NCBI RefSeq assembly: GCF_030055635.1
Contig: NZ_JASFYM010000007.1
Location: 1-64,000, forward strand
Origin: Methanothrix sp.
Lineage (GTDB): Archaea; Halobacteriota; Methanosarcinia; Methanotrichales; Methanotrichaceae
Length of the DNA: 64,000 nucleotides
Direction: 5' to 3'
This document shows, in pieces, positions 47,630-51,783 of the stretch. Under the pieces are notes generated by a model, which ran no database searches, was not told the origin of the DNA, and was given only the letters and a program-made list of their open reading frames with translations. Each line of letters begins with the position of its first letter. The first letter of the stretch is position 1. The position numbers and the translations under genes are program-made.

Positions 47630-48762
47630 ATGGGGTCTCTCTGTAAGCTGCGTCCCGATTATAGTATAAATTGATATAATATTGTATGTTACATAGAATC
47701 ATCTATGAAGTACGGGTTAGTGTGCAGATTTTAAATTGATAGAGAGTAACAGGGCGCAAACTCCAATCTTTGGAGTAAGCCCGTACGCAATATAGAGGAG
47801 CAACGATCGAGATGAGATCTGCCTACAAGTTCCGGCTGTATCCGACTCGGGCTCAGATCAAAAAGCTGGAGGACACGCTGGAGACATGCAGGCAGCTCTA
47901 CAACGATGCTCTGGCAGCGAAGAAGGAAGCATGGGAGGATGACCGCTACAATCTGACGTACTATGAGATGGCAAGGCAGCTATCAGCGAACCGCAAGAGG
48001 AACACCTCTCTCAAAGCTGTATATGCCCATGTACTTCAGGACGTTCTCAGACGTGTTGACAAAGCGTTTCAGAACTTCTTCAGGCGGGTTAAGAACGGAG
48101 AGAAACCAGGATATCCACGATTCAAGGGCAGGGGATGGTACAAGTCGTTCACCTATCCAGATGCCGGTATCGGCTACAAAATCGAAGGATCGAAGCTCAT
48201 TCTGTCTGGTATAGGTGCCATCCGGATCTTCAAGCATCGAGAGATCGAGGGCAAAATCAAGACATGCACCATAAAGCGCGACAGCACCGGTGCATGGTAT
48301 GCGATCTTCTCCGTCGATACAGAAGAGGAACCGCCCAGGGTGGATCCAAGAACTGCTGTAGGTGTTGATGTAGGTCTGAAGAATGCTGTGACGCTCTCGA
48401 CTGGCGAGACGTTCAGCTATCCGAGGTACCTCATACAGATGGAAAAGAAGCTAGCAGCAGCACAACGGAGACTCTCCAGGAAGATCAAGGGCTCGAAGAA
48501 CTGGATCAAGCAGAAGCTCAAGGTTGCCAGGATCCACAGAAAGATCAGGAATCTCAGAGACGAGTTCCTGCATCAGATCTCGAAGAAGATTGTAGACAAA
48601 GCGGATCTCATAGTGTTTGAGAACCTGAACATCAAGAGCATGGTCAGGAACCACAACCTCGCGAAACACATCTTAGATCACTCCTGGGGTCGATTGATTC
48701 AATACGCAACTTACAAGGCTGCAAGGGCTGGTAAGTCTGTTGAGCTGGTCGATTCCAGGTAT

Positions 48763-48806
48763 AAGTGGCTACTTATAGTAGCCACTGCTTCTACGTCAGT
48801 AGAAGC
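48763..48806 (+). repeat. 44-bp double-hairpin insert, copy A, inside tnpB
   Basis: Two adjacent hairpins: AGTGGCTACT-TAT-AGTAGCCACT and GCTTCTAC-GTCA-GTAGAAGC. It interrupts tnpB between codon 317 (Tyr) and the next codon (Thr of TSQRC). Closely similar to copy B at 48961-49003. Its length is not a multiple of three. Confidence 0.85.
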
Positions 48807-48960
48807 ACGTCACAGAGATGTTCAGGTTGTGGTACCATCGTACCGAAAACACTGAAGGATCGAGTCCACGAATGCCCGAAATGCGGGCTCAAGCTGGACA
48901 GAGATCATAACGCTGCATTGAACATAATCACCCTCGGACTGAGGGGTAGAGCCTGTGGAG

Positions 48961-49003
48961 AAGCGGCTACTGAAGTAGCCGCTGCTTCTACTTTAGTAGA
49001 AGC
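48961..49003 (+). repeat. 43-bp double-hairpin insert, copy B, near the tnpB 3' end
   Basis: AGCGGCTACT-GA-AGTAGCCGCT followed by GCTTCTAC-TTTA-GTAGAAGC. Compared with copy A one stem pair has changed from T-A to C-G on both arms, while loop bases differ freely. In the restored reading frame it adds AATEVAAASTLVEA to the protein. Confidence 0.85.
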
Positions 49004-49258
49004 ATACTGGATGAAACAGATCGATGAGGCAGGAAGCTCCGGCCTTCAGGCCGGAGAGGAAGTCACTTATATGAAGTGACGCAAAGGACAGTGGGTTCCG
49101 CCATCCAAATGCTGAAACACTGCCATCCAGCAGCGTGAGCCAGCGGCGAATATCGCGATGTTCGACCCCTGAAATAGAGCATTTGAAATAATTTATCGTT
49201 CTGTTTTGTCAATCTACTATTTAAACACACCATAAACTGAACAAATAGCATTATTTTT

Positions 49259-50700: not shown

Positions 50701-50751
50701 TGATATAGAGCAGCAGGGCGTAAACTCCCCTCCCCGGAGAGGAGGTCACGC
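50701..50751 (+). mobile_element. Short deletion derivative of the tnpB-type element (fused ends)
   Basis: GATATAGAGCAGCAGGGCGTAAACTCC matches the tnpB left end. It joins directly to CCTCCCCGGAGAGGAGGTCAC, which matches the right end (GGCCGGAGAGGAAGTCAC). All coding sequence is lost. The right-end remnant supplies a GGAGGT five bases before an ATG at 50752. Confidence 0.65.
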
Positions 50752-51783
50752 ATGCACAGTGTGGGAATCTTGATATATCGATCTGCGGAATGTGCTCTTG
50801 GAGGGGTTCCGATCAAAGAGGAGATATGGATTGAGAAGTACAGGCCCACAAGCCTGGATGAGATCGTGGGCCAGCCTGAGATAGTCAGGCGCCTCAAGTC
50901 ATACGTGGCCACGAGAAACCTGCCCCATCTCCTCTTCTCAGGGCCACCGGGTGTCGGAAAGACTGCAGCCGCGATCAGCATAGTGCGAGAGATATTCGGC
51001 GAGAGCTGGAGGGATAACTTCATCGAGCTCAATGCATCTGACGAGCGCGGCATAGATGTCGTTCGCACAAAGGTCAAGGACTTCGCCCGGATGGCGCCGC
51101 TGGGAGGGGCTGAGTTCAAGGTTATATTTCTGGATGAGGCGGACGCGCTGACAAGCGATGCTCAATCTGCTCTCAGGAGAACCATGGAGAGGTACAGCGC
51201 GACCTGCAGGTTCATACTCTCCTGCAACTACTCTTCGAAGATCATAGAGCCGATACAGTCGAGGTGTGCGGTTTACCGGTTCAGGGCTCTGACTCCAGAG
51301 GCCATCGAGAAGAGGATACGGTACATCGCGGAGCAGGAGGGCGTTGAGGTGACAGAAGACGGCATCGCGGCCATAAACTACGTCGCAAGGGGAGACATGC
51401 GGAAGGCGATAAACGCGCTCCAGGCCGCGGCTCTGATAAGCGACAGGGTGGATATGAACACAATCTACCAGATAACATCAATGGCGAGGCCGGAGCAGAT
51501 CAGGAATCTGATAAAAATGGCGATGTCCGGGGATTTTGCAGGCGCGAGAAACGAGCTCGACGATCTTCTCCTCGTACAGGGGCTCTCAGGCCAGGATGTG
51601 GTGGTGCAGATCCATCGCGAGATGCTCGACCTGGATGTGCCTGATGCGGATAAGGCCAGGATGATCAACCGGATAGGAGAGATAGACTTCAGGATCACAG
51701 AGGGGGCGAACGAGAGGATTCAGCTCGAGGCCCTTATCGCCTACATGGCCCTCACAGGGCTGTCAAAATCGACAGCCGCATGA
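50752..51783 (+). CDS. rfcS: Replication factor C small subunit (clamp loader)
   Basis: AAA+ clamp loader subunit. [20 protein letters not shown] opens the conserved part; Walker A is [13 protein letters not shown], Walker [10 protein letters not shown], sensor 1 SCNYSSKII and the arginine finger SRC. The frame from ATG 50752 is 343 residues, but the first 20 ([20 protein letters not shown]) are not family-like and lie beside a transposon remnant. The normal N-terminus would be at codon 21 (ATC, Ile), preceded by GGAGGGG. Loads PCNA with the large subunit, which is not in the window. Confidence 0.93.
50771..50780 (+). promoter_or_regulatory. Possible TATA box inside the 5' end of the RFC frame
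   Basis: TGATATATCG would place transcription start near 50798. That leads to GGAGGGG (50800-50806) and then an in-frame ATC at 50812, where the conserved RFC sequence begins. A competing AT-rich box is upstream at 50699-50708. Confidence 0.35.

Follow-up and report, generated by a model that had tools for sequence, protein, structure and literature searches.

The question raised by this locus is how two copies of a small double hairpin came to lie within one transposase gene of a Methanothrix genome. The window, by which we mean the whole 64,000-nucleotide stretch analyzed, carries a solo tnpB gene of the IS605 OrfB type at positions 47812–49014 (domain matches OrfB_IS605 and HTH_OrfB_IS605; native stop codon at 49012–49014). 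This gene and all other features of the locus given below are on the forward strand. The original prediction placed two hairpin-bearing copies, A and B, within tnpB. Both are present, and their limits were refined to 48764–48807 for copy A (AGTGGCTACTTATAGTAGCCACTGCTTCTACGTCAGTAGAAGCA, 44 bp) and 48962–49004 for copy B (AGCGGCTACTGAAGTAGCCGCTGCTTCTACTTTAGTAGAAGCA, 43 bp). DNA folding showed that each copy consists of two abutting hairpins of 8–9 bp, with z-scores of −7.9 for copy A and −6.0 for copy B. In copy A, hairpin 1 (48765–48785) reads GTGGCTACT-TAT-AGTAGCCAC and hairpin 2 (48786–48807) reads TGCTTCTAC-GTCA-GTAGAAGCA. The predicted difference between the copies, T-A in A against C-G in B on both arms, is real and corresponds to stem pair 3. 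The element consensus is AGYGGCTACT-loop-AGTAGCCRC followed by TGCTTCTAC-NNNN-GTAGAAGCA; its ends are AG... and ...GCA, GTAG occurs in both stems, where it is paired and adjoins the loops, and the element has no coding capacity. The hairpin-1 pattern was found at four places in the 1.76-Mb genome, which exceeds chance: a control search with the pattern reversed had no match.

Native tnpB sequence would be expected to have no further copies in the genome and to be present in all homologous tnpB genes, and the results contradicted both expectations. A scan detected 12 clear copies in the genome of the window itself (G000; E < 1e-4), each of them located in a tnpB gene or in a remnant derived from one, and more in related genomes, while both this genome and its relatives contain homologous tnpB genes without the segments. 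Excision of copy A brought VDSRY-TSQRC back into frame, as had been predicted, and removal of both copies from the window yielded a clean 370-aa TnpB that tracks the intact TnpB of the same genome. The statement that the element was inserted twice in tnpB stands as far as the presence of both copies is concerned, but the gene is split by copy A only. Copy B lies three codons ahead of the native stop and alters the C-terminus alone (CGDTG* becomes CGEAATEVAAASTLVEAYW...).

The copies in tnpB use four sites in the 3' half of the gene, and the orientation of the element is identical at all four. S1 (SRY^TSQRC) holds window copy A, which shifts the frame; S2 (DHNA^ALNI) is filled in C5, C18 and C4, where the element also breaks the frame; S3 lies in the Asp codon preceding the terminal TG-stop (CG^D) and is filled by window copy B and in C17, C18, C2 and others. 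The fourth site, S4 (QFT^TYKAA), is less secure, being based on a decayed copy with decayed flanks (C6:35777) and on a divergent alignment. The combination of filled sites differs among tnpB copies of the same genome, with S2 only in C5, S3 only in C17, S1 and S3 in C7 (the contig of the window), and S2 and S3 in C18. The C1 copy (L018), which we took as reference, encodes an uninterrupted 371-aa TnpB with S1–S3 empty; the same three sites are empty in the C9 copy (L021), which is cut by the contig end. In L017 only S2 of these three is filled, and in L019 only S3. The site of copy A is thus empty in L017, L018, L019 and L021, and that of copy B in L017, L018 and L021. Copies of tnpB in relatives, for example L110, L115, L117 and L120, also have no insert at S1–S3. 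S3 is the most widespread site and is occupied in the majority of Methanothrix species.

Copy B lies within a predicted TnpB guide-RNA (omegaRNA/reRNA) region at 48952–49066. The host insertion sequence has a right-end hairpin at about 49036–49066 (GCTCCGGCC-TTCA-GGCCGGAG AGGAAGTCAC). The flanks of different insertion-sequence copies diverge past GTCAC at this right end. When the region was folded as RNA, copy B contributed two additional hairpins to a predicted multiloop with CCUG...CAGG as its closing stem, and the outer stem stayed undisturbed. Rfam matches over the copy B region were weak, with 28.0 bits for HgcC and 22.6 bits for RAGATH-18 against gathering scores of 50 and 44.9. We therefore did not assign the element to a known RNA family, as these sub-threshold matches most plausibly reflect the guide RNA in which copy B is embedded. 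RAGATH-18 is part of the IS607 TnpB guide RNA (PMC11061315). As a separate observation, the weak matches in this archaeal guide-RNA region (window 48952–49079) hint that HgcC may itself be a TnpB guide RNA. Searches of the literature, in which most subscription papers lay outside the coverage, returned nothing on inserts in Methanothrix tnpB or on HgcC in connection with tnpB.

The location of S3 in the guide-RNA region bears on two other explanations. According to the first, the segments are native to tnpB and its guide RNA and were lost by deletion in some copies, which would be consistent with the prevalence of filled S3 sites across the genus and with HgcC and RAGATH-18 matches that span S3. 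However, empty copies encode an uninterrupted TnpB, insertions at S1 and S2 break the frame, many tnpB copies of G002 and G000 are empty, and the sequence is found not only at four positions in tnpB but also at unrelated places that have empty orthologues. The empty sites refute a native origin for copy A, for the S2 copies and for the copies outside tnpB, and we consider this explanation very unlikely as a whole. According to the second, the element arose at S3 as an additional stem of the TnpB guide RNA and serves TnpB, and the copies elsewhere are by-products, for example of insertion-sequence RNA or single-stranded DNA. The predominance of S3, the placement of copy B's hairpins in a multiloop with an intact outer stem, and the confinement of every copy of G000 to tnpB material all fit such an origin. 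It is nevertheless improbable in our judgment, given that the intact tnpB L018 of the same genome is without the element, that copies with different stems lie outside tnpB in G001, and that a reverse transcriptase or an RNA route would be hypothetical. Under the insertion reading that we prefer, S3 may have been long-lived because a loop of the guide RNA can accommodate the two added hairpins or has come to use them. Because copies lie within both tnpB and its guide RNA, they offer a route for hairpin gain by guide RNAs and for the formation of tnpB pseudogenes.

Some derivatives join flanks of different sites. In three of them the right flank is that of S3; the left flank is that of S1 in C6:35870 and G002 L054 and that of S2 in C6:69494. 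These hybrid flanks indicate recombination between copies and have the form that a deletion from one copy to another within a single gene would leave. At C2:105791, the left end of an insertion sequence is fused to a segment that contains copy B and the right end. Fusions of left and right ends (CAGGGCGTAAACTCC...GGAGAGGAGGTCAC, about 40–50 bp) at window positions 50707–50755 and at about 880–930 of L003 look like minimal insertion-sequence derivatives. A tnpB remnant at L012:1380-1480 (G000:C6, about 69.6 kb) carries a further insert of ~118 bp (AAACGCTGCATGCGACATTAGAGGCGTGCC...), and in G002 L054 the element is followed by a sequence resembling this insert. There is also a second, unrelated hairpin family, CTTCGAC..GTCGAAG adjoining CTCTCGA..TCGAGAG, which is inserted just ahead of the right end in many tnpB copies (loci L003:1389-1460; L019, L036, L111, L115; L107:1609-1655, L101) and which lies, in G003, within the same DDE transposase gene that holds the first element in G001.

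The distribution of the element was surveyed in 50 genomes of the family, and clear matches were confined to one genus, Methanothrix. With the refined model R2 at E ≤ 1e-3, 24 copies were found in five of the six genomes of this genus and none in the 44 other family genomes; the sixth genome of the genus (G005) has weaker copies. A match in G012 (E 0.005) was not repeated with R2 at E ≤ 0.001 and was taken as chance. An exact-pattern scan of genome contigs returned one Methanothrix record only (Methanothrix sp. LCB019-064). Outside tnpB, G001 contains two antisense copies in the remnant of a DDE/IS240-like transposase (weak PF13610 match), one of which has stems that are changed yet paired, AGCAGATACT/AGTATCTGCT and GCACCTAC/GTAGGTGC. 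The orthologues of this transposase in G004 and G005 align continuously across both points, and so these sites are empty there. Of two further G001 copies, one (G001:832680) is located at the 3' end of a gene assigned by eye as carboxymuconolactone-decarboxylase-like (AhpD), and the other (G001:1217858) lies between two genes; each is absent from four alignable orthologues, the fifth of each group not aligning there. The element thus occupies at least eight different sites with empty counterparts. This finding upholds the proposal that it invades coding DNA, since insertions specific to single lineages arose independently, also outside tnpB, and the orthologous positions are empty. The spacer between mtrA and mtrH in several species (L135 = G001:1798722, L083, L067) contains a hairpin that resembles hairpin 2 of the element and shows paired differences between species. 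It is possibly an old insertion at the mtrA end; since it could be either an old copy or an unrelated hairpin, we left it out of the set.

Could a protein still be made from the interrupted genes? In yeast mitochondria, ribosomes skip the so-called byp elements, and coding inserts bypassed in the same way would leave tnpB functional. In favor of this, the tnpB of the window is intact apart from copy A. Production of the full protein would be hypothetical, the split genes are expendable transposase genes, and of the G001 copies just described one is at a gene end and another is intergenic, so that we regard bypassing as extremely unlikely.

At the at least eight sites mapped, the eight junctions inspected showed no target-site duplication, and their 5' flanks (TATA, GCAG, GAGA, ACTA, ATTT, ACTC, CAGA and AGTG) had in common no tetra- or pentanucleotide of the kind needed for an IS200/IS605 target. 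A purine^pyrimidine step was present at six of the eight junctions, a post hoc observation (p = 0.004) that we did not rely on as a target motif. The alignment of 15 copies supported the predicted conservation of structure: 7 of 18 stem pairs were changed on both sides, compared with a mean of 2.8 in shuffled alignments, a count matched by only 2 of 500 shuffles. The covariation score was attained by none of the 500, 94% of the cells were paired, and sliding the partners abolished the signal. These results support a conserved double-hairpin form. By themselves they do not prove selection on RNA or DNA structure, because the shuffles leave the relatedness of the copies in place and because palindrome correction linked to replication could produce paired changes.

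Taken together, the most probable explanation is a tiny non-autonomous mobile DNA of 43–44 bp that consists almost entirely of two abutting hairpins and is moved in trans. The conclusion that this geneless element has jumped repeatedly, mostly into genes for transposases and occasionally elsewhere, largely holds, as far as it can be read from sequence comparison. Its small size, hairpins, lack of coding capacity and precise insertion without duplication suggest that it probably travels as folded single-stranded DNA, and that an enzyme of the Y1/HUH type or similar may recognize the hairpins and mobilize it in trans, as proposed for REPINs. Once within a tnpB insertion sequence, the element would have been spread further by the transposition of that sequence. 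The simplest account of its accumulation in transposase genes is their dispensability; insertion into single-stranded insertion-sequence intermediates would in addition account for the one orientation shared by the copies in tnpB. No Y1 transposase gene (PF01797) was found in G000 or in five of the six genomes of the genus. The exception, G002, has a single Y1 gene, which belongs to a different tnpA-tnpB element and next to which none of the double-hairpin copies was seen. Perhaps the mobilizing enzyme has been lost, arrives with visiting elements, or belongs to a different type. More tentatively, double-hairpin mini-elements might form an archaeal class, with at least two sequence families here, that moves without a RAYT-like partner through host functions or another enzyme and adds hairpins to TnpB guide RNAs; we put this forward as a possibility that is on balance doubtful.

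Several known systems share features with the element, although no prior description of it was found in the literature covered, which was incomplete. Rickettsia palindromic elements (RPE) are likewise palindromic and insert into protein genes, but they keep the reading frame, whereas the 43–44-bp element shifts it and copy A truncates TnpB. The double-hairpin elements (DHE) and repetitive hairpin-forming elements of mitochondria also consist of adjacent hairpins, insert in spacers and sometimes in genes, and differ in their insertions between close relatives (PMC2800124). Two adjacent hairpins and insertion differences among close relatives are both found here; DHE reside in organelle genomes rather than an archaeal chromosome, and we assumed an unrelated origin. 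The small dispersed repeats (SDR) of cyanobacteria (Elhai et al. 2008), as cited in PMC4390886 and PMC3116915, are very small, geneless mobile repeats with precise insertion, but SDR5 inserts within HIP1 sites, whereas the element has no fixed target. The PATEs and MITEs of IS200/IS605 and IS607 share the IS605-type surroundings, and TnpA recognizes single-stranded DNA hairpins (PMC6006769); IS200/IS605 derivatives also share the lack of a target-site duplication. In contrast to them, the element has neither insertion-sequence ends nor a common 5' target sequence.

The original comparison with palindromic repeats in bacterial genes was apt, as the element resembles REPs and REPINs. These too are short non-autonomous hairpin elements that undergo paired stem changes, occur also within genes (PMC3733652) and have a hairpin doublet as the mobile unit (PMC3116915), and a hairpin unit with paired stem changes is what we found. 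The element could even belong to the REP/REPIN class proper, mobilized by a RAYT that the lineage once carried, in keeping with its size, its hairpins, the lack of target duplication and GTAG in both stems. We consider such membership unlikely. REPs are defined by an unpaired GTAG or CGTC tag at one foot of the hairpin (PMC3733652) and by a cognate RAYT (Y1) transposase that the repeats often flank, whereas GTAG in the element is paired near the loop, and since both the unpaired terminal tag and a linked RAYT are missing, the element falls outside this definition. Its host is an archaeon, its copies lie mostly in transposase genes, and they number about 12, compared with the usual REP count of >100 per genome (PMC2817692). 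As an archaeal case with empty sites, the element joins the short list of geneless palindromic elements of <50 bp and raises the question of what moves such elements without a RAYT.
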